Shown: one piece after another, positions 9,538 to 43,291 of the stretch
Layout of the letters: the number at the start of each line of letters is the position of its first letter
Numbering within the stretch: the first letter of the stretch is position 1
NCBI GenBank assembly: GCA_003313425.1
Contig: NHZP01000051.1
Span: 62,001-126,000 of the forward strand
Direction: 5' to 3'
DNA length: 64,000 nt
DNA from: Pseudopyrenochaeta lycopersici
Lineage: Eukaryota > Ascomycota > Dothideomycetes > Pleosporales > Pseudopyrenochaetaceae
Translations under genes and position numbers: made by a program
The notes under the pieces: model-generated
Told to the model about the DNA's origin: nothing
Databases searched by the model: none
The model's input: the letters and a program-made list of their open reading frames with translations, nothing else

Positions 9538-9600
9538 TAACGTCACTCACTGCGTGGCGGGACACACTGTGTGATGGGACACTTTTTTCTACACCGCACG
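9538..9600 (+). repeat. Left terminus of a possible outer TIR unit
   Basis: TAACGTCACTCACTGCGTGG followed by CGGGACACACTGTGTG and GGGACAC is the inverted complement of 43200-43257 with few differences. Both begin with TA, the pogo/Tc1-type target dinucleotide. No closer partner exists in the window. Confidence 0.6.
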
Positions 9601-9619
9601 TATACAGATACAAGCTGTA

Positions 9620-10793
9620 ACATCCCTCACTGCGTAGCGAGACACACTGCGTGGCGAGACAAATGAGGGGTACTTTGACTTTCAGCAACCGGAAAGCTCA
9701 TGCGCACAACGAATATTGCTATAATTCTACGAAAATAATCTGCTATAGCTAATTCTGAATGTCTATGATCCACTTTGCCCAAAAATCACGTTCGCATCGT
9801 CGCCTCCGCGCCTGATTTGTACAGCGCCTTGCGTCGTGGCATAACAGGCCTCCCTCCCCACAGCGCCAACCTCAAGCCTTTTTCGCTCCGATTTTTTGTA
9901 GAATAGCCTTATCCTAGCCGCACAACCTCCCTCCAATACCAGGAAGGCATCATCAGCCCTATGCGCGCTGCGGGGCGCAATTTCATGCAGCGCCGCCCCG
10001 TCGATTGGTACTTCCAGCGGAAGCGAACCACCGATCCGGGCTAATGCGAGATTTGCACAAGGACTCGGAACATTACTAATCTGACTCAGGATTGGGAGCA
10101 GTGCCAAGGACCCTTAGGGCCACGGCGCTTGTCAGTCCAGCTAACGCATTTCCAGCGTCGAAACCAGCCATCTTGTTGTACATTTCGAGACGCGGTCTAA
10201 CGCACAGCGATACCCACTTTGTAACGTAGACATATACCATTACGACGCCCTTGAGCTCCGGAACCCACTGTTGTTCTCTCCGCTGACCGAACGAAAGACC
10301 TAATCAAGCCCCACCACGTCCTCATGCTTCTCGAGTCCACCAGCGCCGATTCTTAGACCAAGCAGCAGCTGAGCTCTAGGCGGCTCGTTGAAGGGGAATA
10401 CGATGTGATGGGAAGGATACAAGCTAAGATGGAGTGCGGCGGGCCTGGAAATCGAAGCCTGCAATTTGGCAAGTGGGTTCAACCGAGCGCTACTGGCAAA
10501 ACGCCGTCGTTGCAAGCGCATGCGAAGGTGGAAAGGCTCTTGCATGAGCACTGCAATCGTTAGGGCCGTGGAGAGGTGCGGAGTCTTGGATTGTTCATGT
10601 TCGTGAGGGATGAGTGCTGGCAGAGCTGGGATGGTGGCTATGCTTGGCAAGCCACTACGCTATCTAGGGCTGCATGATGTCCTCTATTACCGGAAATAAC
10701 CCTTATGTCTCTTCGCAATGCCATCCATTCCAGACGATCATGACAAGGGTGTGGCCGGAGCGGGTCGGCCGCCCTCCCTGCCAGTAATGGCGG
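9620..10793 (+). repeat. Left TIR of the 5.4-kb NLR-carrying transposon
   Basis: Matches 14981-13925 in reverse complement. Shared blocks include GAGGGGTACTTTG, GGCCACGGCGCTTGTCAGT, CGCTGACCGAACGAAAG, CATGAGCACTGCAATC and GCTATGCTTGGCAAG. Open frames inside it are not shared as proteins and are ignored. Confidence 0.8.
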
Positions 10794-10803
10794 CATGCAG
10801 TGC

Positions 10804-13213
10804 TCAATCACCCTGTGACTCTTCGACCTCATTTGAAGCAGCTAAGCTTATGCCATAGTGATATGTACTTATCACGTTCCCCTCTATCCAGACACCGTCT
10901 CTCATTACACGCTTGACTAATACGTGTGCATCCTCCATACAAAATGCTTCCATCTCGTTACACTCTTTGCAAACATCCCAGTCTCCATTAGCGCAGATTC
11001 GGCAATGATAGTGAAAATCCACTGTCTTGATTTCCGAGGTGCAGATGTCGCATGTGAAATACACCCCAGGTCGTCAGCATTTGCAACCAACGCGGCATTT
11101 GCATCCTTACTCCGAAGAATTATATCGTTCTCTTCATGCTTCCCAAGTAGAAGGTTTACTAAAACATGATGTCCTTTCTTAGCGGCTATTGAGAGCGGTG
11201 TTCGACCAAAGTTGTCTGCTATATTAGGATCGCTGTGATACTCAAGAAGCAGTAACTTGACTGTAGCCTCCTTGCCGCCGGCTGCTGCCCACCACAATAA
11301 TGTACGACCGTAATGGTCTACAGAATCAGGCCTGGCTCCTGGCATCGCAAGTAAGAGCGCTAACACGGTATGATAACCACAGAATGCAGCTCTTGACAAC
11401 GTGGTCTCTCCATATATATTTTGGTGCTCTAGCACAATTCCTTTCAGGAGCAGCAGCTCAACTATCGCCTGATGGCCGTTTGCTGTCGCGTGAAACAGTG
11501 CTGTCTGTCCCCTAGTGGACTCAAAGTTCAGATCAGCACTGTAGTTCTCCAGTAGCAGCTTGACCACTTCGAGATGGCCATTGTTGGCCGCTGCGATGAG
11601 TGGCGTCCAGCCATTGCTATTGGCGACTCCTACATCTGCTCCCTTCTCTAGCAATAGCTTGATGACATCAACATGGCCATTGTTTGCCGCTAAGTTGAGT
11701 GGTGTCCAGCCGTCGTTGGTGGCGACCTTCTATGCGTTGTATAGCTTCCTCGTATGCTTCGTCGAGTGCGGCTGAGCCTCTAGAGAGCTTAGCTAGCGTT
11801 GACTTTACGTCCTTTGCCGTTCTCTTGTCTAGCAGCGAATCAGTGTGGAGGCGAGCAAGAAGAAACCTAAGAATTTGTCAATCTGGGTCATATTACAGGT
11901 TGTCTAGGAAGAACATACATGCCGTCTACCGCCTCCACGATCTTTTCCTGGACTATCTGCTGTAGCGCAGGGTCGCGCTGAATACACCGCGGCAGTCGGC
12001 ATATCTGGCCGGCCACGAATCGCTTCACATCCTTTTTGCTAGCCTGTACCTCCAGCTTCAGCGCTTCGTTAAACCAGTCCACAATCTCCGGAATGAAACG
12101 AGAGGTGGTCATTAGGCGAACGTCCCGTCCCGTCTGAAGATCGCAGAGTTTGGCCAGAAACTGGCGCCGAGTGCCGTCGCTGTCCTGGCATTCATCCAGA
12201 GCATCAACCACAATATAGACAGCGGAGTAATGTGCAAGTACATCTCGGAGTGCGCTGAAGACCTCATCAGAAGATGGCCTGGTTCCTCTGTCAGCATGCT
12301 GTTTGTGCAGCCGTTCCACGGGCCCCACTAGCGATGGTCGAGCCTGCACCAGCTGCTTGAGAATAGCTGCCAACATCCTGGAAACATCCTGCTCCTCCTG
12401 AGCCTTGTAGTTGCAGTACACATAAGCAACTCCATGTGAGCTGCTCTGCACTGATTTCAACAGATGGTCGATTGCAATGGCCGCTACCATGGTCTTGCCG
12501 GCTCCCGGAATTCCTGGGCAGAAGAGTGTTGCCTGGGGTTCGCTGAGCCACCTGGTTGCCTGGGGCGCATCTAGAAACCATTGACCTGTTCCCTCCTGTC
12601 TGCGCTTTATAATGTCGGATTGTTGCGAGGGGTAGTCTGTCGATGATATCCATTCTAGAAGCCTGCGGTGCTCCGCGTTGTCTCCACGTGTCCGAACGGA
12701 GTTGAGCTCGGATTTGATGGCTTCAGTGTCGGTCTTTATCGCTCGAGAGAGTTTGCTTGTACACGTAAGTAGTGCCGCTCTATAGTGCTGGTATAGAGCT
12801 TACAAGTGGTCCCTCTGTAACGCTATCTCAACCAGCGTCTTCAAACGCTCGATTCGACCCAATATGCTATTCACCTCCTCTTTCTTGAACTTCCACATGA
12901 GTATATCTCCAGCCTTCTTTAGTCGACCTCCATCTGTCATCTTAGTCTGCAGCGTTTCCAGCGCTTGCTTGAACTGGTCGAGCGGCCCGTTATCGACTGC
13001 GAGGGCTCGGACGGCGGTGTGCCACGGCGTGTTGGCGTTTCCTTCCTCCAGGTGGAACCTCAGATTAAGAAGGAGACTGTTTAAGTTCGAGACCTCAACA
13101 GCGCACGTTGCGCGCTCTCTCGAGGCATCCTTGACGTCGGTCAGATATCCGACGACCTTGCCCGAGAGCTGAAGGATAGCGATAATGCTAGCAGTGACAC
13201 TAAGCGGGTCCAT
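10804..13213 (-). pseudogene. Helo-like/NACHT/ankyrin/ZZ NLR-type gene, frameshifted
   Basis: From the ATG at 13213, exon 1 (to 12804) encodes a fungal STAND N-terminal domain (M-D-P-L-S-V-T-A-S-I-I-A-I-L-Q-L). It splices over 12756-12803 into a NACHT domain with Walker A G-I-P-G-A-G-K-T-M and Walker B V-V-D-A-L-D-E-C. A GTATGT intron near 11875-11926 leads to a conserved helical segment (F-L-L-A-R-L-H). About six ankyrin repeats (11720-11150) follow, then a C-terminal ZZ-type zinc finger (C-D-I-C...C-R-I-C...C-K-E-C) at about 11050-10900. The ankyrin frame does not join the NACHT exon (shift near 11730; the usual winged-helix segment seems deleted), nor the ZZ frame (shift near 11070). Such STAND proteins act in non-self recognition and programmed cell death. 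It fills the inside of the 9620-14981 transposon. Confidence 0.7.
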
Positions 13214-13924
13214 GTTGGGAAGAAGCCAACATATATAGTAGATGCGTCTGAAAGAGCGGCGGGGTGGGAGAACGGTGACATTGTAGGTAGAGAAGCCGAA
13301 GGGAGAGCGTCAGGCTGAGGGGATACAGCCGCAGCAAGGCTGAACAGCTGCATGCGGCCCAAATTCTGCCGCGCCACACCTTATCGATAAGGCCAACTGT
13401 GGTGTCAGCGTTTATCCGCCGGTGAGGTTGTGATAGCTTCTTAGGCTGATGCATTTGCATGATCTACGTGATAATTTGTTGTATCAATCATCTGTCCATT
13501 AGCGAGATCGATGATGTGGCGGTCCTTACCCAGGTGTAGGAGAGACGTTCATCTAAGCGCTGCGGAACTCCAAAAATATCACTCCGAAGCAAGCCACCTG
13601 TCCCAAAGGTATTGTGAACGCTGCGCATTAATGGACTAATTCACAGTAATTCATTCCCTGAAGCTACTCTAATTAGGTCTTTCATTTGCGATTGGAGGTG
13701 CGGGTTGCGTTGTGGCAAGCAGAGCCATAGTGTTTATCGTAGGAAAGTCTAGACTGTTGCAAGCGAGAAGCTGGTCCACACGCAAGAAAACGCACTGATT
13801 ATTGCGGGTTTATTATTCGCCTTACACAATCATACAAATCAAGTGGTGGCGAGACGGCTATGTTTTGAACGACGTCCGCATGGAAGATTCGCCACTTCAG
13901 CCTCGTTAAACTAATGAACTCCTC
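13214..13924. other. Upstream region of the NLR pseudogene, nothing else seen
   Basis: Unique sequence lies between the NLR start codon and the inner edge of the right TIR. It presumably contains the promoter, but I see no distinct motif. Confidence 0.4.
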
Positions 13925-14981
13925 CGATAACGCTAGCAGGGAGGACGGCCAACCCGCTCTAGCACAGACCTTGCCGTGAACGTCTAGAATGAATGGCGTT
14001 AGGAAGAAATATAACCATCGTTTCCAGTGACAGAACGGCATGGAGCCCTAGATAGTGTAGTGCCTTGCCAAGCATAGCTACTATTACAGCTCTGCTATAC
14101 ATTGCGAATATGAATGATCTAAACCCCTCATGTCCCTTACATGTCAAAGTAAAGCACGTCTCTACAACCCTAAAGATTGCAGTGCTCATGTAGGGAGCCG
14201 TTCATTGTTTAACTATACGACAGCTGTATCACCACTAGGGCCGTCCCACTCTATCCTATCTTATAATTGTATTCCCCTTCTACGACCCGAGGCTAGAGGC
14301 CTTTCGTTCGGTCAGCGGAGGGACAACAGTGGGTTTCGGAGCTTGCTCAGGGCGAGGAAGACATCGTGCGTTGGACCGCATCTCGAAGTGCGTAGGATAG
14401 CTGTGTCAAAGCCGCTTCGACGCTGGAAACACGTTAGCTAACTGACAAGCGCCGTGGCCGTGCGGGTCTCGGCACTGCTCCCAATCCCAAGCCGGATTTA
14501 ATCATATTTCGAGCGCACGTGCGATCTGCACAGCCACGATGTATGAGCCGAGGAGTGCGGGGTCATCTCGCATTAGCCAGAATTAGGGATTCGCTTCCGT
14601 GGAAGTACCAATCAACATGGCGGCCCTGCATGAATTTGCCCGCGACAGCGCGCACTAGGCTGATGATGGCTTCTGAGTATTAGAGGGAGGTTCTGAGGCT
14701 CGGGCAAGGCTATTCTACGAAAATTTGGAGTGATAAAGACTTGACGTTGGTGCTGTGGGGAGGAAGGTCTGCTATGCTACGAAAAAAGGTGCTGTACAAA
14801 TCTGGCTCGGAGGCGACGATATAATTGTAATTTTTAGGAAAGAGTGCATCATAGACATTCAGGATTAGCTACAGCAGATTATTTCCATCGAATTATAGCA
14901 ATATTCTTTGCGCGTATGAGTTCCAAAGTACCCCTCAATTGTCTCGCCACACTGTGTGTCTCGCTACGCAGTGGGTGACGT
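13925..14981 (-). repeat. Right TIR of the 5.4-kb NLR-carrying transposon
   Basis: Inverted counterpart of 9620-10793, ending at 14983 in ...GTGACGTTA. An outer TGTCTCGCCACACTGTGTG segment mirrors the CACACTGCGTGGCGAGACA arm on the left. Confidence 0.8.
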
Positions 14982-15047
14982 TAGTGTTCAACAGGAAGCG
15001 CAAATCGCAGGGCGATTAGCTGAGAACAGCCTTGAGGAACGAAGGTA

Positions 15048-15090: not shown

Positions 15091-15183
15091 GTTCATTATT
15101 GACGAGCTTAGCTTGGTAGAAAGCATGGTATGTGGCGGACACCAGTTTCAATGATCCAATCAGAGTTGTTTTCCTGGACTCAT

Positions 15184-18376: not shown

Positions 18377-18378
18377 TA

Positions 18379-18870
18379 ACGTCAGTCCAAGCGTGCCGGG
18401 ACGCACGGTGTAACGGGACACATTCGCACCTCGGAGCCTCGCAACCTTTCATTCCTAGGTCTATAGATATGCAGTCAGCGGAATAATGTTCTAAAATCAA
18501 TGCTCTTTCAATGTACTAGTCTCCGACGAGCCTTACTGTGATGTTAGTCGTGCTGTGAATTATTTCGTTACCGTCGTCAAACAACCTTTCGTCGATACCC
18601 CCCTGTCTATCCGCGAGTTAAAGAGTATGTTAGTAAATCGGAGGGTCTGATGCAAAGTTGAATTGAGGAAGATCATCGCAATCAGCTTCAATACCGGCGT
18701 TAAGCTAGTAGAGATGGAGTCCGGGAGTTTCGCCGGGCGGGAGCAGAGATCGTGAAAAGTGTCCCATTGCGTCGGGATGCGCTAGCAAGTCTTAGCTTGC
18801 AGTAGTGTGCTCAGATGTTGCCGTATGCTATCGTAACGAATTTGACGCCATACCTATAGCAGATTGACAT
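18379..18870 (+). repeat. TIR copy L1
   Basis: Outer ~330 bp are almost identical to R1 (27712-28180, inverted), which marks L1 and R1 as the two ends of one element. The first 60 bp contain two spaced GGGAC motifs (GTGCCGGGACGCAC and GTGTAACGGGACAC), with a third (GCGTCGGGATGCGC) near 18770. These are possible transposase-binding repeats. Confidence 0.85.
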
Positions 18871-19024
18871 CTAAAAATAACTTGTGGCGTAGGCTGGCGG
18901 CTTTCTAGAAGCATCCACAGTGGAATGCTCAGCCTGCTACAGGCAACATGGCCTCATTCACCACACTGAGCTGCGCTGCCTCAGCACACTCTCCGCCGCG
19001 CACAAATCCCCATGTTGTCTTGTA

Positions 19025-20719
19025 ATGGATAAGGCCAGTCGTGTGCTATCGCAAGGCCTTCCGCCTGGCGTACCTAGTTCTTACCGTGCTCTAGCAGACC
19101 ATGGCAATGTTCCCCGCTCTACCCTCCATTCCCGTGCCCACGGCCGCCGCTCGATACAGGAGAAGGCTCAGAGTCAACAGTATCTCTGTCCTTGGGAAGA
19201 GGATGCGTTGGTCAAGTTTCTCTTGCAGATGTCTGATCTTGGGCAGCCAGTGCGAATCAAATTCATACCATTCCTAGCCTTCTGCGTGACCGGCCAGCGA
19301 CCAGAAGGAAACCGACCGCCCAAGCCACCCAATAAGAATTGGGCTCGCGCTTTCGAGAAACGCCACCCAGAAACGCAAGCGAGAAGAGTCAGAGCGCTAG
19401 ACTGGAACCGCCATGAGAAGAACACTTATTGGAAGATGTCTCATTGGTTCGAGGTGATAGGAAGGCTGTTACAAGACCCGGCTATCTTAGCGGAGAATGT
19501 GTACAATATGGACGAGACAGGCGTCCTGCTCTCGATGCTAGGTTCCATGAAAGTGCTAGTAGGTAAGAACGATATACGAGACTACAGAGGTGCACGAGTG
19601 AAGCGTATATTGGTTACCGCGATCGAATGTATCAGCGGCGACGGTAGGTATCTAAACCCCATGATTATTTGGCCAGCGACCACTCACCGGAGTAACTGGA
19701 CTACATTTCCCACTCCTGGGTGGCAGTATGCGTGCTCTAAATCTGGATACACCGACTCGTACATAAGCTTAGAATGGTTGAAGCGTATATTTGATCCGGA
19801 GACTAGAGAGCGAGCTAACAATAAGCCACGTGTTCTGATCTGCGACGGTTTTGGGACGCATGACACCCTAGAGATCCTAGAGTATTGCTTTGCAAACAAC
19901 ATAATTCTGTGCCGCCTTCCGTCTCACACCTCTCACAAGCTCCAGCCCTGCGACGTCGCTGTATTTGCTCCACTTAAAGCTGCCTACCGCGAACAAGTCG
20001 AGCGACTGGAGCGAGGAGGTGTTAACACAATCGGCAAGGAGCATTTTACTTCTCTATTTAGCCCTGCAAGAGTAAAGGCATTTACAGTCAAGAACATCAA
20101 GGCTGGCTTTGCTGCGAGTGGGCTAATTCCATTTAACCCAGATAGAGTGCTTAACAGCATGCCAAAGCCCGTCGCTGAATTAACCGCGTCAGAAGTCGCT
20201 AAAGATATCGTCGGGCCGAGTGCTCAAGAAGCCGTTCCACAGACACCTACCACGCCAGTGTCAGCAGAAGGTCTCTTGTCCCTGCAGAATCTGATCATCA
20301 AGCAGGACGCTCAAGCTTTAGACGAGAAAAGCAAACAAAACCTACAGAGACATCTTCGTAAATTTGCGAAAGCCGCCCAGCTGTCCTTTACCAAAGGGGC
20401 GCTCCAGCAGAACCATATCCAGTTTTTATTGAAGGTTAATAATGAAGCTAAAGTTCGACGGTCCACGAAAACATTGGTACTAGGAACAGCTAAGGTCATG
20501 GGATACGAGGAGCTTCAAGACGCGCGAGCGAAGCGTGCTGAAAAGGACGCTGCTAAAGCGACAAAAACCAAGGGGAAACGAGGTCGGAAGCGAACGAAAG
20601 TGACTTTGGAGGTAGACGCAACAGAGCCACCGGCCAAGGTGGCGCGAATGAGTGAAGTGCTGGAGCCAATGCAAGCGGCGATGTCGTCGTGGAGGGCCCC
20701 TATGGCGCGAATGTATTAG
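19025..20719 (+). CDS. pogo-like DDE transposase (DDE_1 superfamily), intact
   Basis: 564 aa from the ATG at 19025. The N-terminus has a psq-type helix-turn-helix (S-S-Y-R-A-L-A-D-H-G-N-V-P-R-S-T-L) and a CENP-B-like second DNA-binding segment (W-A-R-A-F-E-K-R-H-P-E). The catalytic core has V-Y-N-M-D-E-T-G near residue 160, V-L-I-C-D-G-F-G-T-H near 280, and L-P-S-H-T-S-H-K-L-Q-P-C-D-V-A-V-F near 305, giving the three acidic residues. The C-terminus is a basic coiled region ending in a Lys/Arg cluster. It lies just inside TIR L1 and about 500 bp upstream of an NLR gene on the same strand. That position and the TA-flanked ends make it the likely transposase of this element family. It shows no lesions, so it may be active. 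Confidence 0.9.
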   Translation: MDKASRVLSQGLPPGVPSSYRALADHGNVPRSTLHSRAHGRRSIQEKAQSQQYLCPWEEDALVKFLLQMSDLGQPVRIKFIPFLAFCVTGQRPEGNRPPKPPNKNWARAFEKRHPETQARRVRALDWNRHEKNTYWKMSHWFEVIGRLLQDPAILAENVYNMDETGVLLSMLGSMKVLVGKNDIRDYRGARVKRILVTAIECISGDGRYLNPMIIWPATTHRSNWTTFPTPGWQYACSKSGYTDSYISLEWLKRIFDPETRERANNKPRVLICDGFGTHDTLEILEYCFANNIILCRLPSHTSHKLQPCDVAVFAPLKAAYREQVERLERGGVNTIGKEHFTSLFSPARVKAFTVKNIKAGFAASGLIPFNPDRVLNSMPKPVAELTASEVAKDIVGPSAQEAVPQTPTTPVSAEGLLSLQNLIIKQDAQALDEKSKQNLQRHLRKFAKAAQLSFTKGALQQNHIQFLLKVNNEAKVRRSTKTLVLGTAKVMGYEELQDARAKRAEKDAAKATKTKGKRGRKRTKVTLEVDATEPPAKVARMSEVLEPMQAAMSSWRAPMARMY

Positions 20720-21213
20720 AAAATACTCTCGAGCTTGGCTCCATCGTTATTCTAATCTAGGAGTTGTATCCACTGCATTGAAAGGACCATGTAATTTTAA
20801 TAGAACCAGACGTTAACGATGATTGGACACGCGTTTTGCGGTCATCAGTACTATTTGCCGACTGGTCCATCGCAAGCGTGCACGTGCCACCATAGGCCAA
20901 GCCTGCCAGTCTCTAACTAGTCGCGTATTCACGCAACATTGTTGCGACCGCTGTACAGCCTCACGGCTACCCGCTTGAGGTCTGATGCGCCGCCATCGCC
21001 AACCAAAGAATGTGACACGGTCCATCAGAGCCAGCTTGCGACTCTCAGAACGCTGTTTTATTGTCAAGATATCCGGAGCTATATTGTCAGCTACTCGTTC
21101 TCCTATCACTAGCTGACCTCTACAGTGAAAGGGAAAACTAGCTGCCACACTCTCGTCGAGCCTCTTCTGTCTCTTTCCTACCGCACGCGGCCGCCACATA
21201 TCCATATGAATCG
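20720..21213. promoter_or_regulatory. Leader between transposase and NLR, conserved in both copies
   Basis: The sequence 20825-21213 reappears at 42000-42420 in inverted orientation upstream of the second NLR, for example GACACGCRTTTTG and GCAAGCGTG blocks. Conservation in both NLR copies suggests that it holds the NLR promoter and 5' UTR. No TATA box was assigned. Confidence 0.5.
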
Positions 21214-28180: not shown

Positions 28181-28643
28181 CGCACGGTGTAACGGGACAC
28201 ATTCGCACTTCGGAGCCTCGCAACCTTTTATTCCTTAGTCTATGAATATGTAGTCAGCGGGATAATGTTCTAAAATCAATGCTCTTCTAGCCTATCAGTC
28301 TCCGACGAGCCCTACCGTGATGTTGGTCGTGCTGCGGATTGTTCCGTTACTGTCGTTAAACGACCATTCGTCGATACCCCCCTGTCTATCCGCGAGTTAA
28401 AGAGTATGTTAGTAAATCGGAGGGTCTGATGCAAAGCTGAATCGAGGAAGATCATCTTAGTAAGCTTTAATGCTAGCGTTAAGCTAGTAGAGAGAGAATC
28501 CGGGAGTTTCGCCGGGTAGGATTGAAGATCTTGAAAAGTGACCTATTGCGTCGGGACACCCCAATGTGTCTTAGCGTGTAGCTAGCTTGCAGTAGCGTGC
28601 TCAGTTATCGCTGTATGCTTGTGTAACAAATTCGACGCTAAAC
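28181..28643 (+). repeat. TIR copy L2
   Basis: Same orientation as L1, but with many transition differences from it and without the terminal ~24 bp. With R1 it forms a ~930-bp palindrome with an ~8-bp centre (TCCCGGCA). Confidence 0.85.
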
Positions 28644-28709
28644 CTACAACAGATCGTTGGCTTACAACAGCGGCAAATGACCGCCTTACCACTGCTTGGC
28701 GTAATAATT

Positions 28710-31427: not shown

Positions 31428-33601
31428 ATAATTCCCCATCTACCACTGTTTTCAATACACTACCACACATGTGACCTCGGCTAAAAAAGGACCGAAATAC
31501 CACTGTTTCTTCCCCATTTCTTCCCCAAATGCCACTATTTCGTTAGTAGCCTCACCTCTTACATTAGCGCTTGAGTAGCTTAGAACGCGTCCGACGCGAT
31601 TTAAAATGGACGCGTTTTATCGTAAAATCGCGAGTTGTTGCGACAAAATAATTACGAAGAGTTACAATGGAGACCTCCCAGGGGCTTCCTAATACGCTAT
31701 ATGTTGGGCAGACGTTTATATCAATCCAGGCCGCAAAAGAGGCAGTTTTTCACGTTATGGCCTCCCAGAGACTCTCTTTTAAAGTAACATCCAGCGACCC
31801 AACGAGATTCCACGCTAGTTGCCGTTCTAGCAGCGACACAGGGTGCAAATTCTTCATTCGAATCGCCTATATGAACCGATCCGACCACTTTGAGCTTCGA
31901 AAGTTCGTCCCTCATACCTGCGACCTTAGCTCCCATCACGACTGGAAAGCATCAAGCTCTGCGAGGCTTATTGCCCACCGGCATGGGGATATGGTTAAGA
32001 GCGATTTTCAAACAAAGCCGCGCCAGATCCAGAATGCTGAAAGACTTCAGCACTCAAATCAGATATCGTATAAGCAGGCGTGGCGCGCAAAGAAGAAGAT
32101 CCAAAAGAGTACCTTTATGGACACAGAGAAGTCCTTCCAGCTTATCCTTCCATTCCTTGAGGCCATTACGGATAGCGGCTTAGACTCGAATACGGAGCTG
32201 GACGACGAAGGAAACTACGCCACTTCAAGGGCGAACGCTGCCATATCTAGGGATGACGATGGAACCTTTGAATGGTGCCACGTGGCACCACGAGCTTGTA
32301 TTCATGCATTTTGGCACTCCCGGAAGTTCATTTGTGTTGATGGTGCCCATATGAAATCGGACAACAACCTAGTTCTTCTTGTTATAACAATGCTTGACTC
32401 TAATGAGGAGATCCTGCCATTAATGTGGGGGTTCGCCAGAAGCGAGTCTAAAGAATCGTGGCTCAACTTTCTCCATGGTTTTAGGGAATATTTCCTGGAC
32501 AACCTTGAGACGACTGAGCAAGAACGTACCAATTTTGAATATCTTACAATCGTCAGCGACCGGGCAAAGGGTCTAATTCCAGCTATCTCGGAGGTATTCC
32601 CCAAAGCTTTCCATTATTGCTGCATACAACATCTTGCGGAGAACGTCGGAAACGAATACGGAAAGAAAGTCGAGAGGATATTCCGAGCTGCTTGCCTAGT
32701 CGACACTAAGGCGAAGTTTAAAGCTTGTCTTGACCAAATTGAGTCTCTGTCAGCTCCCGCGCGTCACTACCTCGATCATATCGATAGAGAGCATTACGCA
32801 ACATCATACGCACCACTGGTCGACTTCCCACGGTTTGGGCAAACATGTTCCAACATCTCCGAGTCAGTAAACAGCGCATGGATGGAGGCTCGTAACCTAC
32901 CAATACTCCATTCACTCCACCATCTATGGACATACATGATGTCAAAGTTCTACGAAAGACGTCATAAGCCCCAGAAAGATATAAAGTACACTAACTATGC
33001 CTTTGCATATTTCCAGAAAGAGCTTGAGGATAGCGACCAGTATCTTGTAACTCCTCAGGAGCGCGAGAACTTGGTAGCTATTGTATACCGAGCAAATCCA
33101 GGAGACCGGAATACTCGTCTTGTTCAGCTTAAAGCTCAGAAATGTTCTTGTCTCGCTTTTCAAGATCATAAAATTCCTTGTAGACATGCAATTGCTGTGT
33201 GTCGATTCTTCAATATTAAACCCGAGGATTATATCGCCAAATTCTACGAGATTTCTGAGTATCGTGAGCAGTACAAGTGCTCCCTATTGCCGGTTCTACT
33301 AGATGATCTCGAACCTGATGGGTTTACAAAGCCACCTGTTATCGGTACCTCCCGAGGTCGTCCAGTTAAGAAGAGAATGAAACGAACTACGCGAGAGACA
33401 GAGGCTCGGAGACGAGGAAATTTAGTATCGTCAAGCAACCAGAGGGAACAACAGGATGAAGCTCGAAACCGGTATCAATCAGGCACAACGTATTTCCAGG
33501 AACGAAGGACGGGCCAGGCTCCCAGCCCTCTTAGTCAACCTAGAGTATCCTATCACCGTCCTAGCCAGATCGCGTCTTCCCAGCACCTTACTGCACCTAA
33601 T

Positions 33602-36600
33602 CAGAGTTGCTAACAAGCCGGCCGGCCTGGTTGGCCGGCCTGTTCGGCCTGCTTTTAAGCAAGCAGGCCAAGCCAGGCCGCGACTCGCAGAAAACCAGGC
33701 CGGCCAAGCCAGGCCGAAGGTCGCGGCCTGGTAGCCTGGTTTCGGCCTGGTAGGTATGTATATGAAGCCGTACAAATCAAAGTTCAGTTGAGTTGAGATC
33801 GGATGAACTAGCCGCAAAATTTTGCCAAGGCTCACCGACAGGGTTTAAGCAACACGAGCTAATCATAATTTTCCAGGTGCTACCTGGGAGATTGTGATTG
33901 GCTTAAACCCTTTAATACTGGAACTTCCTCGAGCCTAACTCCTCCGTTAAAGACCTCTACCATGCCATGTCAAGTCCGATCGAAAAAGCGCACCCGTGAT
34001 ACACAGGCTACTCAGGAAAATATTCAAACCTTCGAGGAGGAGCTCCGTAGCGCTCTCCTTGACGCGCCAACCGAGACCGCTGCCGCAACTGCCGCCGAAG
34101 CCCTCCCCCCTAACGATAGCGATATCTCCTCTGATGATGAGCGATATACGGATAATTACGATGGGATTCAGTGGGAAGCGATTAAGCAATACATTAAGCC
34201 TCTCCGAACGCAGAAGAGGCAACCGAGCTGGATCTACAAGTACGGATACCGTGTGGCTTCGCTGAAGAACCCAAAACGGACATTTTTCGTCTGTAGACAT
34301 TGCCATCTTAAGAAGTCCACTCATAATCATATCTTTGATGTTACATCATCTGTTTCAGCTGCCGCACGCCATCTAGGGATGAACAGACCTGGCCATAGAT
34401 TGTGTAAGGACGGAAAAGTTACTGTCCAGATGGAGTCCAGTCAACAAACCTTACGGGGCCTTATTGAAGGCGCGTTTGAGGTCTCTCAGGAGATAGCCAA
34501 TGAGATTGGCCACTTTGACGTACAGTCTTTTCGGATGAAAGCCGTCATCTGGCTCCTTCAAAATAACCATCCGTTACGCGAATTCGAGACTTCTGCGTTT
34601 AAAGAGATGATTGCTGCTGCTAACCCTGAAGCCGCAGCAGCGGTTTGGAAGAACCACCAGTCAGTTACGCATTTTGTAATGACACAATACGATCTACTCC
34701 TCTCTACCGTACGCCGGCATCTCTCATCAGCGCGCTCACTAATACACTTTACCTTTGACGGCTGGACGGCAAAGGGTGGCAAGAAAGCGTTTCTTGGCGT
34801 CCATATACACTATCTTGATGACGATGGCAATAAACACGAATATCCCATTGCGTTACCACAGCTAGCCGGTGCTCACACGGGCGAGAGGCTTGGTGAGGTT
34901 GTCAATGACGTAATCCAGAAGTTCGGGATCGAGTCTAGCCAGGTTGGCTATTTCGTACTCGACAATATTGGCTCCAATAACGTTGCTGTCGACATCCTCG
35001 CAAAACACCACTACTTCAACGGTACCCACCGGAGACTACGCTGCGGCCCTCACACGCTTAACCTTGTTGGCCAAACCGTAATCTTCGGCATTGATAAGAA
35101 AGCACTTGAAGCAAATACTAGGGAGAGCGCTGAAGAAGCCAAATTAGAGGCAAGATATCTGCAAGAGTGGAGAAAAGACGGGCCGTTAGGCATGCTCCGA
35201 GACGTAATAGCGTACATCTCAACTCCGCAGCAACACGACCTCTTACGCGATTTTCAGATCAAGGCCAACGAGCAGCTACCGGATCCAAAGTTTCGAGTCA
35301 AAGAAATCAAGAAACCTAGCACTACCCGCTGGAATTCATATCACGACGCTTTTGAGCGCGCTGTTGAGCTACAACAACCCCTTGACGCGTACATGCAATA
35401 CCATATTGGACAGTATCGGATGGAAATGGCTACTCGGGTCGCCCGCAACCCAAACGCCGCGCTGGTTGACGTACCTGATTGGATGAGGACCGAAGGTTTG
35501 ACGGCCCAGGATTGGCAGGTTATTATAGACTATATTCGGATATTACAGCCACTCAAGGTTGCTTCAAAGAGACTCGAAGGACGAGGAAAATGTGGGCGTT
35601 TTGGTGCTCTTTACGAGGTTATTCCAACTTTTGAATATCTCCTCCGCAAGTACGAGAGCCAGTTTGACTTCTTAAAAGATGTTGACTATAACGAGGCGGA
35701 CGCTCCCGAAGATCATGAGCTTTACAACATTCGCGCTGCTTGGAAGAAGCTTCGCAAATACTACGTCAAGCTCGACGACTCTCCAGCGTATTACACGGCC
35801 ACAATCCTCCATCCCCAGTACAAATTCTATTGCGAAAACTCTTGGCTGGATACCCCTCACTGGCTGAACTATAACAACGCGCAGTTTCAAGCTCTCTGGC
35901 AGTCGTACAAGGGTGAATCTGGTAACTGTTCAGAGACCCCGCCACGGCCAAAACGCGTAAGGTATGACGCTGAGATTGACGACGATATCGATCAATATAC
36001 TGGGCCCGTTAAGACGCCAGGAGACGACGTGGGAGATGAGTTTATACGGTGGAAGAGAGTGGATAACCTTCCAAGAGATCACCCCCACGCAATTGATCCG
36101 ATTGCTTATTGGCTCTCTCTATCTACAGAATACCCGAATCTATCTCGGATGGCCCTTGATATACTCTCAATTCCTGCTGCTTCTGCTGATTGTGAGCGCC
36201 TCTTTTCAGAAGTTGGAGATATGTTAGAACCAAAACGGAGGAAGCTATCCGGCCAGCTTACAGCTGCGTTGACGTGCGTTAGGAGCTGGATCAGCAAAGG
36301 CTTTGCAGGTAAGTTAATACCCTCAATATGGGCGTATTGCTGATCTACTTAGATAACAAAAACTTAAATGCCTCCTCCCTCAGTGACGACGCTGTCGATA
36401 AATTATACAAGCTTTGGGAATGGCCAGAGGAAGACGAATGGTTAGATGAAGAAATGGGCCAATCAAGGTTCAAGAAATTAGATTAGTAATACCAATTCAG
36501 GCTTTTCAGGCTTTTCCCAGGCCAGGCCGGCCAGGCCACGCTCTTTCTACTACTCAGGCCGGCCAGGCCAGGCCGTTGGTTGGCGTAAAACCAGGCCGGC

Positions 36601-36646
36601 CAGGCCAAAAGCATTGGCCGGCCTGGCCGGCTTGTTAGCAACTCTG
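33602..36646 (+). mobile_element. hAT transposon with 8-bp TSD
   Basis: Target duplication CACCTAAT is at 33594-33601 and 36647-36654. Terminal inverted repeats begin CAGAGTTGCTAACAAGCCGG on both ends. GGCC/CCGGCC-rich subterminal repeats lie inside each end (33620-33740 and 36510-36640). Length is 3045 bp. It interrupts the MULE transposase gene. Confidence 0.97.
33962..36486 (+). CDS. hAT transposase, intact, two exons
   Basis: Exon 1 is 33962-36308 and exon 2 is 36353-36486, separated by a 44-bp intron (GTAAGT...TTAG, 36309-36352); the frame joins exactly (826 aa). The N-terminus contains a BED-type zinc-binding region (F-F-V-C-R-H-C-H-L...H-N-H). The RNase-H-like core has H-F-T-F-D-G-W-T-A and F-V-L-D-N-I-G-S-N. 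The C-terminal hAT dimerisation domain reads L-S-I-P-A-A-S-A-D-C-E-R-L-F-S-E near residue 745. After the intron the tail is acidic with W-E-W-P-E-E-D-E-W. No stop or shift is seen. With clean TIRs and TSD this copy looks recent and possibly active. Confidence 0.93.
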
Positions 36647-37560
36647 CACCTAATCAAAGCGTCTCATCTCAACTCCCCTACCCTATCCTTAATCATCACC
36701 ATAATTTCCCTAACCAATTCTCGATTGCGCAACCACCAGACTCAAGAGATCAGGATACCCTCTGGCAACGGATCAGGGCTATAAACGCGCGCCTTAGCGA
36801 AACTGAAGCTATAGGAGAACGCTACCGGGCTCAGATTGGGGCTCAGATTGGAGCTGTTAGACAAGCAGTAAACGAGAACAGAAACAATAACCATAACCAG
36901 CCTCCTACGGCGCAGATACCGACGACGTACGCAGAACAACCAACCTTGCAATCTCAGTCCTCTACAGATCTACCGGCCTCGCAATCAAATAGAGACCGGC
37001 CGTCGCCAGATACTGATGAGCTGCAAAGAAGCGGCACCTCACAGGATGATGCAGCCGCTTCACAAGTCACATACATTGACTCTACTGTTACGAATAATAA
37101 CTTCACGTTTGGAGCATCCAGCTCTGTCCCCAACATTACCATCAACGTCACAGCAAGTCCACCAGGGGGAAACAAAAGACCTATAGTAAGTAGGAACGAA
37201 GACGAGGGTAATATCGAGAGGGAAGAGCCTCCTGCTCTATCAACGCGGTCAAGAAAACGAGCTCGAACAGACCAATTGTAAGCATATAAATAGGGTTCTA
37301 GATCTATCATAATACAATCCCGGACCTATCTCTTCTTATGTGAAGTCGCTGACTGCCTGAGGGCCGCGATGGCCGCCAAATAAAGGTGGGCCATGCGATT
37401 AGTTAAATGGTGGCATTTGGGGAAGAAATGGGGAAGAAACAGTGGTATTTCGGTCCTTTTTTAGCCGAGGTCACATGTGTGGTAGTGTATTGAAAACAGT
37501 GGTAGATGGGGAATTATTACGCCAAGCAGTGGTAAGGCGGTCATTTGCCGCTTACAACAG

Positions 37561-37865
37561 AGAGCGGCTGTGGCAAATGCTGAGATCCTTCTAGAAGTGT
37601 CGATGACCACCTGCTCAACCTGCCCGCATCGTGTACACACGCTGTGAGCAACCCTTCAAGCTGCCCTTAGATGCTGAAGAGAAAAATACGAATAGCGAGA
37701 ATGTGAATTTTAGAATCCACCAAGTAGCGTTACATAGGGACAGCTGCTCCGTCGTAGGATTCTCGAAGCTTCGATATAGCAACACATAGCTTATATATTT
37801 GTGTGTATCCCCGTCCCTCTAAAAAATAGAGTTAAGAAAAGAAAAAAGAAAGAGACAATGAATTG
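37561..37865. other. 3' flank of the NLR gene up to the MULE target duplication
   Basis: This sequence resembles the region after the first NLR copy (27500-27700), including the TATATTTGTGTGTATCCCCGTCC stretch in inverted sense. It is shared element sequence, and no gene is seen. Confidence 0.5.
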
Positions 37866-40800
37866 TTATGTTGTTAATAACATATCACTAAATCGAAGGT
37901 TAATACTGCAAGTCCATACTCTTCCAGAGCCAACACCGATTGCAACTATATTCCCTGACACAGACGAGCATAATGGCCGGTATTCAGATGGTATCCATAG
38001 AATGTTTCTGCTAGCATGCTTGATCCATATGCCGTCTGAGCTAAGATTTGTGCCTACGTGCAGGGAGTTTTTAGGTTCCGCAATATCTCTCATACTAGGA
38101 ACTTCTAGGCTCTGAAGATCGATAGGACCTATTTCAGTATAAAGACAGGAGCCAGTAGAGTCAAAGGATAAGTTATGAAGAGCCTTGCCAATGTTAAATG
38201 TTCGCAGGCAGGCGCCGCTGCTCGCATCCCAGATCTTGACGGTGCTATCGTTCGACGCCGACGCCAGCTGGGCCGAGTCGTGCGAGAAGGCTACTGAGTT
38301 GACCCAATGGCTATGGCCCTCGAGGGTCTGCAGGCACGCGCCGCTGCTCGCATCCCAGATCTTGACGGTGTTATCGCTCGACGCCGACGCCAGCTGGGCC
38401 GAGTCGTGCGAGAAGGCTACTGAGTTGACCCAATGGCTATGGCCCTCGAGGGTCTGCAGGCACGCGCCGCTGCTCGCATCCCAGATCTTGACGGTGTTAT
38501 CGCTCGACGCCGACGCCAGCTGGGCCGAGTCGTGCGAGAAGGCTACTGACCTGACAGAACCGCTATGGCCCTCGAGGGTCTGCAGGCACGCGCCGCTGCT
38601 CGCATCCCAGATCTTGACGGTGTTATCGCTCGACGCCGACGCCAGCTGGGCCGAGTCGTGCGAGAAGGCTACTGAGTCGACCCAATGGCTATGGCCCTCG
38701 AGGGTCTGCAGGCACGCGCCGCTGCTCGCATCCCAGATCTTGACGGTGTTATCGCTCGACGCCGACGCCAGCTGGGCCGAGTCGTGCGAGAAGGCTACTG
38801 AGTCGACAGAACCGCTATGGCCCTCGAGGGTCTGCAGGCACGCCCCGCTGCTCGCATCCCAGATCTTGACGGTGTTATCGCTCGACGCCGACGCCAGCTG
38901 GGCCGAGTCGTGCGAGAAGGCTACTGAGTTGACCCAATGGCTATGGCCCTCGAGGGTCTGCAGGCACGCCCCGCTGCTCGCATCCCAGATCTTGACGGTG
39001 TTGTCGTTCGACGCCGACGCCAGCTGGGCCGAGTCGTGCGAGAAGGCTACTGAGTTGACCCAATGGCTATGGCCCTCGAGGGTCTGCAGGCACGCCCCGC
39101 TGCTCGCATCCCAGATCTTGACGGTGTTATCGCTCGACGCCGACGCCAGCTGGGCCGAGTCGTGCGAGAAGGCTACTGAGTTGACAGAACCGCTATGGCC
39201 CTCGAGGGTCTGCAGGCACGCGCCGCTGCTCGCATCCCAGATCTTGACGGTGTTATCGCTCGACGCCGACGCCAGCTGGGCCGAGTCGTGCGAGAAGGCT
39301 ACTGAGTTGACAGAACCGCTATGGCCCTCAAGGGTCTGCAGGCACGCCCCGCTGCTCGCATCCCAGATCTTGACGGTGCTATCGCTCGACGCCGACGCCA
39401 GCTGGGCCGAGTCGTGCGAGAAGGCTACTGAGCTGACCCAACTGCTATGGCCCTCGAGGGTCTGCAGGCACGCACTCCAGCCGTCACTCATAGCTGGCTT
39501 AATAGTCATTCCTTCGGGCGCTTCGTGCTGAAACAGCTGTCTAATCAAACTACCCGTCGGACTGAACAACAGCGCAGAGGCATATGTTTGGAGGGGGTAA
39601 CCTTCAATCGCCCCTTTGTGGTACATGAGGAATCGTCGTGCGTCTTGAACAAGCCGAGTAAGTTTATTTTGGACCTGCATCTCCTAGTTAAGTTAGCCTC
39701 TAGAAGTAGTACATTATCTAGACGTATAATTTCTGAATGCTGTACCTGTAAAAGTGACCATAGTTTGGATATTGATACTACACCCCTTTCTATACTATGG
39801 CATAGACTAAGTCCTTCTAGCCAGTAGAGATACTTCTTCCGTAGAAACTGATCGAGAACAGCCGTAACTTGTACATCGCTAACACTACGCGCACAAGACT
39901 TATGTTTTGAGTTGTAGAGATGATCAATCCAGTAAATACAGGGATAGCGCAACCCTGCTAATGGGTCTGGATTAGGCGGCTTGACGTTTTTGACAGGGAG
40001 TCCTAATGCTTCAAGTTTGTATATGTCCCTATGCAATGTCCTAGATAGGATTGCTAGCGATCTTGAATAGATTACCTGATGGACGGTTGCAGTGCCATCT
40101 GGAAAAACCTTTTTAAACGCCTTTGTGTGTAGGAAGTCCTTTGCGGATTGGTGCACAAAATAGATCGTGTCTTCTCGAAGAGTAAGGAATGATCCACAAA
40201 GGCTAATAATCTCTCGCACTGACTCTAGATCATCAACAAAGTTATCGAGTAGTTGCACGAGCGTAATTAATTCGGGGATCGTAACTGGTCGATAGAAGAG
40301 TACAGTTGACGCGAGCACCTGCTGACAGATCTCAGCACTATCTGATTCGTTAATTTGGTTCATCATCCGCTCGTACAAAGCGTCTAGCCCAGGCGGGAAT
40401 AGCGCTATCTTCTTTAGCACGTTCCATTTTGGTGTCGCTTTCAGGTCTTGGCATACTAACGCTACCCAGAGAAAGGTACCGTTAGCATTTGACGTTAAAT
40501 GTTGGAGCACAGCAGATCGAATCTCTACTTTGTATTGCTTTTCCTGCGCCAACTGGGCCACCTTTTGCTGGATGAAGATGTTGACTGCCGCGGCGACCGA
40601 CTCTGCGTTTAGCTCAAGGCTCAGTCTCACTTTTTGCCCGGCCCGCTCTAATTGTGCTTCGATATCTGGCCAATTACGGCTAGAGACAATCCACTTGACG
40701 CGGCGAGACGCAGATGAATGTTCTGCCACAAATTTAAGCAGTTTAGGCAGATCAGTGATGCATTCATCTAGGGCGTCGACGATTAGGTACGTCGTGCTCA

Positions 40801-41998
40801 GGCTTGGGTCTCGAAGCACGTCCACGAAGATCTCTGTCAGGGCTACCCATGCATTCGCATCCTCGAACAAGGTTTTGCCCGCGTGATCGTACTTCTTGCG
40901 GATGTGCGATACAAGCGACGGTTGCTGGTTTACGAGCATGTACAGCAATCCGCGTAACACAGCAGTGGCGCTGTTGATGCGCGAATCGGTCGCTTGGCAG
41001 AAAAAGTACGACAGAAGGGTAGATTGAGGCATCGAGCTGTGCAGTTCGTCGATGATGCCACAGAGCAGCATCGTCTTGCCTTTACCAGGATCACCTTTTA
41101 CCCATAACAGTCGGCTGTGCGGGTCCTGTTGCCATTGCTGGAAGGTATTGTTGTCGAGAACCCATCGGTAGGAGTCTGCTAGCAGCCCACCCTTTGTATC
41201 TTCAATACGCTTCTTGTCGTCACGCGGATCCGTATGCCGTATGTCTTGAATGCATCTTTCCCCCTTATGGATCTCGTCCATCAGACGTCTGAACGCGCTT
41301 GCCGCCCCTTCGCTGTAAGCCGGCGCTATCTCAACACCAAATATGCCTGATAATGAATACCACGCATCTTCGTCACGTTTGGTCTCCCTGTCGCCTTTCC
41401 ACCGCAGCCGCTCGTCGACGCCAAAGCAGGAGAGAGGAGCTCCGTCGAGCACTTCGTGTGGTATACTGGTGATTTTGTAGATTAATGGCTTTAGCGTCAC
41501 CTTGTCACCAAGCTTCTCTCGTTCTTTAGAAAAGAACTCGACTGTACGAGGGGCAAGAAGCTCTTGAAGCGTCCAACCGCGTGTGAACCAGCGACTTGAC
41601 CTGAAAGCAGGCTCCCAAGTAAATTCGCTAAGCATACTGCTGGCCTTCCGCTTCCTTGTTGATACGTCTGATAGGTATACATAGCATTTCGTCGCGTTTT
41701 GGTACCAACGAAACATGGACCTGATAGCCCACGAATGCTCAGCCTTGTCTGATGTATCGATGCAGCATGTGTCAATCCAGAAGTACTGCAGACTATCATG
41801 CCGTGCCTGTTCTCCGCAGAAGCGAATCTTCTCGTAGCCAGGCTTAGCCTTGCCGTCGCCTTTTACAAAGTCTGCAAAAGTCACCTCTTCGTCATCAGCT
41901 CCCCAAGTGTGTGAAAGTATGGCATATGGAGGTATCGCGTTATCGTCGAAGCTAATGATAATAAGCTCTCCATCTTCTTTGTACTTTAGAAGACGCAT
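37866..41998 (-). CDS. HET-NACHT-WD40 (HNWD-type) NLR gene, apparently intact
   Basis: The start is the ATG at 41998 (M-R-L-L-K-Y-K-E-D), conserved with the other copy. Exon 1 41998-39713 and exon 2 39674-37866 join in frame (4095 bp, 1364 aa). The intron is only 38 bp (GTACTA...CTAAC...GCAG). Domains are: HET (residues ~10-150: Y-A-I-L-S-H-T-W-G, W-I-D-T-C-C-I-D); NACHT with Walker A G-D-P-G-K-G-K-T-M near residue 305 and Walker B L-I-V-D-A-L-D-E-C near 405; a helical linker; ten WD40 repeats of 42 aa; and a ~110-aa tail shared with the other copy. Family members sense non-self and trigger incompatibility or cell death through HET. The gene sits next to TIR R2 and reads away from it. If the short intron is not used, the product would stop after the linker, without WD40 repeats. 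Confidence 0.88.
38208..39473 (-). repeat. Ten near-identical in-frame 126-bp WD40 units
   Basis: The 42-residue units are almost identical at the DNA level. Variation is confined to the residues after G-H-S (SW, GS, HW), one before SVAF (S, N, D, R), and the S/N-D-S/N-T before VKIWD. The array also leaves a long antisense open frame (38185-39531), a by-product of repeating a stop-free unit. Confidence 0.97.
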
Positions 41999-42539
41999 CG
42001 ACTCATATGGATACGTGGCGGCCGCGTGCGGTAGGACGAGACACGAGGGGCTTGATAGGGCAACCCTGGCAGGAGGATTGTGTGGCGACAACAACTAGCT
42101 TTGCTGTTTACGCAGAGGTCAGCCTAAGGAGAGGAGAACGAGCAGCTGTACAGCTCCAGACACTACGATAGTAAAGAAGCGTTCTGGGAGACGCGAGCTG
42201 AGGCTGGTGTCCTGTATCGTATTCTAGGTTTGACGATGGCGGCGCACCGTACCTCAGGCAGCAGTCAGCTGCCAGGCTGATCTTCAGCGTGACTGCACAC
42301 TGATAGTTTCGCCCATGATGGCACGTACACGCTTGCCGATGGACTAGTTGACAAATAGCACTGATGCCCACAAAATGCGTGTCGAAGACGATGGGGGGAA
42401 TTGTGTACTGTGGAAGCTTGCTGCGGCGTCTCCGGGGAGCGCAGCTCAGTGCTGTGATTAAGGCCTGCCCCATGGCGAGGCTGAGCAGCTGATCGTGCCA
42501 GCTTACCCTACAGCGACTCTCGGCAATTAATCAGTTATA

Positions 42540-43025
42540 GGTATAGCTTTGAATTCGTTACGATAACATACGATAATATTTGAGCACGCTACTGCAGGCT
42601 TGCTGCACGCTAAGACTTACTAGCGCATCCCAACGCTACGGGACACTTTTTACGATCTCTGCTCCCGCCCGGCGAAACTCCCGGACTTCATCTTAACAAG
42701 CTTAAAGGTGTTACTAAAGCTTGCCGCGATTATCTTCTTGAATTGGACTAGGTGTCAGGCCTTCCGATTTTCTTAAAGACCCTCCAACTCGCGCATAGCC
42801 AGGGGGGTTTCGACGAAGGGTTATTTGACGGCAGTAACGAATCAATCGACAGCACGACGAACATTGCGGATCCGCCCTTCGGAGGCTGATGGTCTGAAAG
42901 AGCCTTAACTGAAGAATTTAACCTGATCACTACACGTCTGTAGACCAAAGAACAAGAGCTTGCGAGGCTCCGAAGTGCGAACCTGTCCCGTTACACCGTG
43001 CGTCCCGGCACGCTTGGACAGACGT
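42540..43025 (-). repeat. TIR copy R2
   Basis: Inverted copy of L1 with many differences. It keeps the complete outer end (...GGCACGCTTGGACAGACGT followed by TA). The region 42420-42540 just inside it still resembles the transposase start (CTGAGCTGCGCT), evidence of a deleted transposase. Confidence 0.85.
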
Positions 43026-43199
43026 TATAACGTTAGTTTCAAATTTGTCGCGTGCGAACCCGGGCTCATAACTTTTTGAAGCAAGTGATTGTGTTCATTG
43101 TTATTATTCCTATAGGCGTGGTGCCTCACTCTTATATATACGCCCACGGCCCCTGTCACATATTGCTGTTTCAGTCACTGTGATGTTTGACAGCGATGG

Positions 43200-43291
43200 T
43201 CCGGAAAAAATAGTGTCCCGCCACACAGTGTGTCCCGACACGGAGTGAGTGACGTTACCTTGTGCATCTCGCTGGGCAGTAAGGGACGTTA
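43200..43291 (-). repeat. Two stacked right-hand TIR termini
   Basis: A first end, GTGTCCCGCCACACAGTGTG...GTGACGTTA, closes at 43257 and mirrors 9538-9600. A second, CTGGGCAGTAAGGGACGTTA, closes at 43291 and resembles the terminus at 9618. Both end in the TAACGTC signature (inverted). Confidence 0.65.

Follow-up and report, generated by a model that had tools for sequence, protein, structure and literature searches.

The 64,000-nucleotide stretch of Pseudopyrenochaeta lycopersici DNA studied here (the window; C51:62001-126000 of genome G000, a 62.7-Mb fungal genome and the single genome studied) contains three genes of the NOD-like receptor (NLR) type, each bounded by long terminal inverted repeats (TIRs). 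We conclude, with a probability of roughly 0.86, that these genes travel in TA-inserting transposons of the pogo/Tc1-mariner type that ordinarily carry one recognition gene of the NLR or HET type. A transposon family carrying fungal NLR-type genes as standard cargo had been suggested in a first-pass annotation of the window, and within this genome the suggestion is supported by further copies, by their cargo, and by empty target sites with a single TA. There is good support, in this one genome, for specialisation in NLR/HET cargo. Proteins related to its NLRs and pogo transposase come, where named, mostly from fungi that we take to be Dothideomycetes, and some from what are presumably Leotiomycetes; Mytilinidion, Pyrenophora, Bipolaris, Alternaria and Paraphaeosphaeria are among the genera.

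Two families of long inverted repeats bound the receptor genes

The first-pass annotation described seven termini beginning TAACRTC as one shared signature around all three NLR genes. Each tip lies where it was placed (9538, 9618, 18377, 14983, 43027, 43257 and 43291), and the tip and subterminal style are indeed common, but the ends are of three kinds. A single TIR shared by all three NLR genes is therefore rejected: two families have long TIRs, and a third type of end is short. The heptamer alone is likewise rejected as evidence, as the window has 23 occurrences compared to 13.0 +/- 3.5 in shuffled sequences; the stronger evidence is the long inverted repeats behind the tips. Ends of the TIR-A family (TIRs of about 500 bp; 18377 and 43027) bound both HET-NACHT-WD40 genes, and ends of the TIR-B family (about 1.1 kb; 9618 and 14983) bound the NACHT-ankyrin gene. 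Both long-TIR families have TA-ACRTC tips. The end at 43291 is, as judged by eye, a 34-bp TIR-B-like remnant.

The cargo assigned to these units by the annotation, specifically one Helo/NACHT/ankyrin gene and two HET-NACHT-WD40 genes, is recognized by Pfam, although the HeLo part is weak (E = 0.026 to PigL_N for the N-terminus of NLR-C, under the cut-off). The boundaries are revised. Two inner TIR-A ends that the annotation lacked, at 28183 (-) and 28170 (+), split the region into an NLR-A element (18377-28183) and an NLR-B element (28170-43027) that lie head to head. These inner ends (28170-28183) are fused with a 14-bp overlap, and both lack their outermost 14 nucleotides. Further mobile sequences are nested inside, namely a long interspersed nuclear element (LINE) in NLR-A and MULE and hAT transposase genes in the NLR-B element, all recognized by Pfam. 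The features of the window elements are as follows (ORF, open reading frame).

18377..28183 (+): NLR-A element, TIR-A with pogo transposase and HET-NACHT-WD40 gene A; TIRs 18391-18862 and 27701-28183, 90% over 483 bp; cargo by Pfam
18377..18862 (+): left TIR-A of NLR-A, intact tip TA-ACGTC; 29 genome matches
18893..20719 (+): pogo-type transposase ORF, 608 amino acids (aa), directly behind the left TIR; Pfam DDE_1, E = 2.7e-30
21142..22983 (+): HET and NACHT domains of NLR-A; Pfam HET, NPHP3_N, NACHT
22881..25385 (+): LINE (reverse transcriptase and RNase H) inserted in NLR-A; Pfam RVT_1, RNase_H
26313..27485 (+): WD40 array of NLR-A, about 5 repeats of 126 bp
27701..28183 (-): right TIR-A of NLR-A, without its outer 14 nucleotides; 14-bp overlap with the next TIR
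28170..43027 (-): NLR-B element, TIR-A with HET-NACHT-WD40 gene B; TIRs 28170-28654 and 42530-43013, 485 bp at 74%
31652..33613 (+): MULE transposase nested in the NLR-B element; Pfam MULE
33869..36343 (+): hAT transposase nested in the NLR-B element; Pfam Dimer_Tnp_hAT
37866..39683 (-): WD40 array of NLR-B, about 10 near-identical 126-bp repeats
39545..42094 (-): HET-NACHT part of NLR-B, open over 849 aa; Pfam HET, NPHP3_N, NACHT; 97% identical copies at C54, C43 and C46
42530..43027 (-): outer TIR-A of NLR-B, intact tip
43028..43035 (unstranded): TAACGTTA next to the TIR tip; the aligned empty site L046 lacks it
9618..14983 (unstranded): TIR-B element with one NACHT-ankyrin gene; TIR of 545-568 bp (587 aligned bp) at 74%, plus inner blocks
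10917..13309 (-): NLR-C, three successive ORFs with a weakly HeLo/PigL_N-like N-terminus, NACHT and ankyrin repeats; Pfam NPHP3_N, Ank

The same MULE (99% identical protein), accompanied by a companion ORF, is present in two TIR-A NLR elements, at window positions 31652-37281 and at L013:7707-9998. The window copy is split by the hAT sequence.

TIR-A pairs enclose HET-NACHT-WD40 genes across the genome

A search with the left TIR-A yields 29 matches in the genome, and the divergent 5' end of the copy on C54 yields 28 matches, none at a new place. Inverted repeats measure 429-502 bp at 74-76% identity at loci L009-L012 and 483 bp at 90% in the window. There are nine adjacent, inward-facing pairs of TIR-A ends, and by position a NACHT match lies inside six of these. 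The seventh, on C59, encloses a HET-NACHT-WD40 gene degraded by repeat-induced point mutation (RIP). Thus, HET-NACHT-WD40 cargo is present in 7/7 pairs of up to 21 kb, and in 7/9 of all inward pairs. One of the two longer pairs, C28:425232-463086 (38 kb), falls outside the size-limited count; it contains no NACHT match, and there is a WD40 remnant close to the right end. The other, C51:162098/244424 (82 kb), is rejected as an element, since the same 40-bp outer flank at both ends marks it as a large inverted duplication. Three of the TIR-A elements (L009, L010 and L011, on C54, C43 and C46) are short, at 5.5-6.4 kb, and encode HET-NACHT proteins about 97% identical to that of NLR-B.

Empty target sites demonstrate movement

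The joined flanks of six elements (L009, L010, L011, L012, L029 and L030) were searched against the genome, with 40 of 218 candidates scored. For three of the six, all of the TIR-A family (C54, C43 and C46), the joined flanks match repeats across the junction at no fewer than 4, 3 and 33 places, respectively. No empty site for L012, L029 or L030 is found among the matches listed in this search. Five empty sites were aligned to the three TIR-A elements, and each has one TA, compared to a TA at both ends of the element. The alignment for L011 includes a 2-bp difference in a run of T, away from the junction.

The composite formed by NLR-A and NLR-B (18377-43027) occupies one target site, as indicated by matching empty sites for the outer unit, four at 79-81% and one at 70%. 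In the empty site that was read (L046), the flanks join at the same point, but a 33-bp stretch located 14 bp left of the junction is present in L046 only. In the window, an extra TAACGTTA, missing from L046, adjoins the right end. We infer that an excision left this sequence as a TA-ACGT-TA footprint and that a re-insertion occurred beside it.

For the TIR-B family, a TA target-site duplication is evident in one case. L035 resides in a minisatellite, where the occupied unit reads gag-TA...TA-cttag and the neighboring unit reads gagTActtag. The joined flanks of L032, L034, L036 and the element on C37 revealed no empty site. Thus, the TA duplications and empty sites that the first-pass annotation had named as support are found within this genome itself (L009, L010, L011, L035 and the composite). 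Outside the TA, flanks differ between copies except for L027/L028, which are related by an inverted duplication, and for the left flank of L031 and the right flank of the 9618 element, which share a repeat. This repeat abuts a TIR-B element at both places (window 14997-15525 and L031:1-529, 98% over 529 bp). NLR-bearing TIR-A elements have transposed.

TIR-B elements carry varied recognition genes

The TIR-B left end has at least 42 matches (40 of 76 candidates scored). When the end from C14 is used as the query, at least 42 matches are again obtained (40 of 56 scored), and four more pairs are completed. At least 13 inward TIR-B pairs were found and 10 were read, nine as whole loci and the pair on C31 through 3.7 kb of its cargo (L040). 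End length ranges from 0.4 to 1.2 kb, and the two ends of an element are up to 99.9% identical. The cargo of the pairs read is as follows.

Window: NACHT-ankyrin
L031: HET-NACHT-WD40
L029: HET and a WD40 remnant
L032 (L032:1582-5706): HET-NB-ARC-TPR gene, open over 1375 aa, some 15 TPR repeats; ends 87-91% identical
L035: HET
L036: HET (by tblastn only) and TPR
L040: two HET domains and a WD40 piece
L030 and L034: DUF7104 repeats
L033 (G000:C25:256100-264700): DDE_3, HNH_2 and AhpC-type genes; left end truncated; no NLR

A HET, NACHT or NB-ARC domain is therefore present in 7/10 of these pairs, DUF7104 repeats in 2/10, and neither in 1/10. Given contig-specific NACHT and HET densities, with HET scaled to its 520 candidates, chance alone should place a HET or NACHT domain in 0.87 of 10 pairs, compared to the seven observed (P = 2.5e-6). 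The three unread pairs (C29:369539-381000, C68:173875-179184 and C6:235723-239399) enclose no NACHT or HET among the matches listed. Recognition genes occupy the same position inside most of the TIR-A and TIR-B pairs read, an outcome that the annotation had named as support for its suggestion.

HET proteins seem to have DUF7104 as a C-terminal repeat. DUF7104 repeats adjoin a HET match at five other loci (C46:96-99 kb, C5:1759-1764 kb, C9:819-824 kb, C50:38-41 kb and C3:1580 kb) and a NACHT match at one (C47), and for this reason we count the cargo of L030 and L034 as NLR/HET-type repeat proteins. At C44, C8 and C29, DUF7104 has no adjoining HET or NACHT among the matches listed. The ends of L034 and L035 match over 1,095 bp at 99.4%, 634 bp at 100% and 477 bp at 98.7%, whereas their cargo is unrelated. 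Of all the data, this contrast hints most strongly at an exchange of cargo between ends.

A pogo-type transposase resides in one TIR-A element

An intact pogo-like transposase had been annotated next to one NLR gene. Its 608-aa ORF is confirmed, and its location can be given more exactly as inside the NLR-A element, behind the left TIR. The 1,957-bp stretch that holds it (18866-20822) takes the place of 144 bp in the C54 copy, and self-comparison of this stretch reveals no TIRs of its own. The encoded protein is 73-75% identical to Pyrenophora DDE-1 proteins. A search of PDB sequences returned chance matches only. The junction between pogo and NLR recurs in L037 (97% over 3.0 kb), where the transposase gene is cut at residue 336 and no TIR is left. 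Another pogo remnant (83%) lies 2.3 kb upstream of the NLR at C88:26100, with a different pogo sequence in between. Among the TIR-A loci compared, only the window copy has a DDE_1 transposase inside its TIRs, and the loci on C54, C43, C46 and C59 have zero pogo matches.

Fungal pogo-like transposons of the Tan1/Fot1 type share with this system a DDE_1 transposase (67% to a protein named transposase tan1) and TA sites. Standard elements of that type carry a transposase only, between short TIRs, whereas the elements described here have TIRs of about 0.4-1.2 kb and an NLR aboard. The TA target duplication fits an enzyme of the Tc1/mariner-pogo group. Judging from these sequence features, the 608-aa enzyme probably moves the TIR-A elements.

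Evidence against the proposal and alternative explanations

Several observations weigh against our conclusion, and some of these favor particular alternatives. Two concern the enzyme. Its DNA-binding region gives a weak match (HTH_Tnp_Tc5, E = 0.052, under the cut-off), and a 60%-identical pogo relative (L039) has no TIR with this tip in 3.4 kb. The latter result would be expected if some other enzyme moved the TIR-A elements and the window ORF were a bystander, as would the position of a related pogo outside the TIR-A fragment in L018 and the dozens more pogo-type matches in the genome. We nevertheless judge a bystander to be somewhat unlikely, because the ORF abuts the TIR, has no ends of its own, and forms the same junction again in L037, and because TA duplication suits a Tc1/mariner-pogo enzyme.

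The remaining points concern the cargo and the TIR-B family. The TIR-A copies are of common descent, and therefore the 7/7 pairs do not represent seven independent events. NACHT lies within 7 kb inside only 2/11 single TIR-A ends (at the single end on C69 it lies 7.5 kb inside) and 4/23 formerly single TIR-B ends. TIR-B cargo is decayed in L029 and L030 and partial in L040, and the scanned ORFs of L030 and L034 include no HET domain. Of 15 NLR genes at 75% identity or more, eight have a TIR-A end and seven have no detected TIR; two of the latter were read (L037 and L038), with no TIR present, and five are unread. Finally, there are zero pogo matches at the eight TIR-B loci L029-L036 and in the L040 cargo stretch, and no DDE_1 among window ORFs of at least 150 aa in the TIR-B scan. 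We therefore file TIR-B elements just as TA-inserting, non-autonomous TIR elements. According to the first-pass annotation, the association would be accidental if the TIRs in other genomes flanked unrelated DNA and if these NLRs also occurred at conserved sites without TIRs. Within this genome, unrelated DNA is flanked in L033 only, one of the ten TIR-B pairs read, and 7/15 related genes do have no detected TIR.

Such data could also result from passive capture in the style of Pack-TIR elements, wherein TIR elements in an NLR-rich and repeat-rich compartment pick up their neighbors without any tie between element and cargo. The genome is indeed rich in such genes (at least 152 NACHT matches, and 150 of 520 HET candidates scored), and the L033 pair, the eroded TIR-B cargo and the related NLRs without TIRs are all compatible with capture. 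We consider this explanation unlikely. It does not account for the excess of recognition domains in TIR-B pairs over chance, for cargo in the form of long open genes rather than fragments (L032, 1375 aa; L034, 1127 aa; L031; the TIR-A NLRs), for the same gene traveling with TIR-A copies, or for purifying selection on that gene.

A third possibility is that the window lies within a giant tyrosine-recombinase element, a Starship, that carries the NLRs, with the TIR elements as minor passengers. NLRs are known accessory genes of Starships according to the available portions of the relevant papers (PMC12506042, PMC12134995), and two ORFs with the DUF3435 domain (Starship captain or crypton-type recombinase) are present at 6588-8082, adjoining an AT-rich block. 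Neither ORF falls within a TIR-A or TIR-B element of the window, and elements with their own TIRs, several also with their own TA and empty sites, are found on many contigs, which makes this explanation improbable. Regardless, nesting of the locus inside a Starship would not conflict with our interpretation of the TIR elements. Segmental duplication, in which NLRs multiply in blocks and the TIRs are just flanking repeats, draws on the frequent expansion of fungal NLR families by duplication and on the inverted duplication on C51, but it is very improbable because the ends are inverted and paired, the flanks of paired copies are unlike except for one shared repeat, and the single-TA empty sites contradict it for L009, L010 and L011.

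The TIR-A cargo is a receptor with diversifying repeats

In 21 comparisons among seven HET-NACHT copies, including L037 and L038 without TIRs, dN/dS is 0.16-0.33 at dS of 0.045-0.22. Restricting the analysis to five TIR-bound copies gives 0.20-0.33 in 10 comparisons. These low values indicate purifying selection on TIR-A cargo. The WD40 portion comprises arrays of about 4-13 repeats of 126 bp that match at 83-96% in nine copies (eight with a TIR-A end, plus L038 without); no array was detected in the RIP-degraded copy on C59. Of 60 repeats from seven copies, 54 are distinct (C43 contributed 11 of its 13). Five positions hold nearly all of the variation, at 2.0-2.6 bits compared to a median of 0, and four of these five form two pairs, 8/10 and 26/28.

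In the HNWD genes of Podospora, positively selected pairs of positions, 7/9 and 25/27, are located on the propeller surface, as described in the portion of PMC1805685 available to us. Because the pairs observed here match these up to the numbering register, the TIR-A cargo is, on the basis of its sequence, the HNWD kind of receptor with repeats that are diversifying, and a role in incompatibility is predicted.

Most elements measured carry no RIP-like mark (TpA/ApT 0.81-1.19), with L036 intermediate at 1.41. The C59 copy is RIP-like (TpA/ApT 1.77, GC 0.36), with 26 TAG and 22 TAA codons in 607. The predominance of unmarked elements suggests that the multi-copy NLR elements mostly escaped RIP or moved after RIP.

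Proposed mechanism and implications

The pogo enzyme of a complete copy would bind the TIR tips and cut and paste both its own element and transposase-less copies. TIR-B elements may be mobilized in trans by a relative of this enzyme. Exchange within the long TIRs could refill the cargo slot. The cargo may be kept as an allorecognition or immune receptor that serves the host, the element, or both. We therefore offer, tentatively and at slightly below even odds, the view that these elements constitute a modular receptor shuttle. This would be a transposon lineage specialized in recognition genes, whose long TIRs serve the transposase as substrate and also provide arms for swapping NLR/HET cargo, such that the receptor repertoire is spread and reshuffled by transposition. 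The unrelated architectures HET-NACHT-WD40, NACHT-ankyrin, HET-NB-ARC-TPR, HET and DUF7104 repeats would all be covered by this view.

How do fungi build up large and variable NLR and het repertoires when RIP hits duplicates? A transposable element family loaded with a single hypervariable receptor offers a testable mechanism, wherein multiplication occurs by transposition and diversification by repeat turnover. It could also account for presence/absence polymorphism of het loci among strains, and the element itself possibly profits from its cargo. Mobile defense genes in bacteria provide a parallel. In this fungal system, the self/non-self receptors themselves would be able to move and multiply.

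Relationship to known systems

In the PMC literature, as represented by the partial texts available to us and with subscription journals and preprints outside its coverage, we find no account of TIR transposon families with NLRs as standard cargo. The comparisons below draw on the same kind of partial text. The closest receptors are those of the Podospora anserina HNWD family (het-d/het-e/het-r), which share the HET-NACHT-WD40 order, near-identical 42-residue WD40 repeats in variable number, and hypervariability at two pairs of codons two apart (7,9 and 25,27 there; 8,10 and 26,28 here). Here the genes are transposon cargo, whereas the portions available mention no TIR element around the Podospora genes; one Podospora NWD pseudogene is preceded by a transposon relic (PMC1805685).

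Among mobile elements, ToxTA (formerly ToxhAT) is similar in being presumed Tc1/mariner-type, with a TA target duplication and host-gene cargo (PMC12506042). It is one non-autonomous TIR element with the effector gene ToxA, whereas here there are two multi-copy families with NLR/HET cargo and one copy that has its own pogo gene. Starships with NLR accessory genes are likewise mobile NLR carriers in Pezizomycotina (PMC12134995, PMC12506042, PMC9594970), but these use a tyrosine recombinase (DUF3435), are very large, and carry mixed cargo. The elements of the present study are of the DDE/TIR type, mostly 4-10 kb, and usually hold one recognition gene. The 294-kb element Icarus of Pyrenophora tritici-repentis has TIR edges, DDE endonuclease genes and, in one isolate, an NLR-HET gene; it is far larger, is deemed disabled by its authors, and does not have an NLR as its defining cargo (PMC9594970).

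Other features of the window

The short third type of end, TIR-C, forms a pair that may represent the ends of an outer 33.7-kb unit around the NLR elements (9538/43257).

9538..9590 (+): TIR-C left end, 51 bp, 90% to 43257-43207
43207..43257 (-): TIR-C right end, 51-bp inverted match at 90% to the 9538 end

Positions 1-5000 of the window are AT-rich and RIP-like (TpA/ApT 1.96, GC 0.32). Between 15001 and 18000, GC skew reaches up to 0.32 across ORFs that have no Pfam match.

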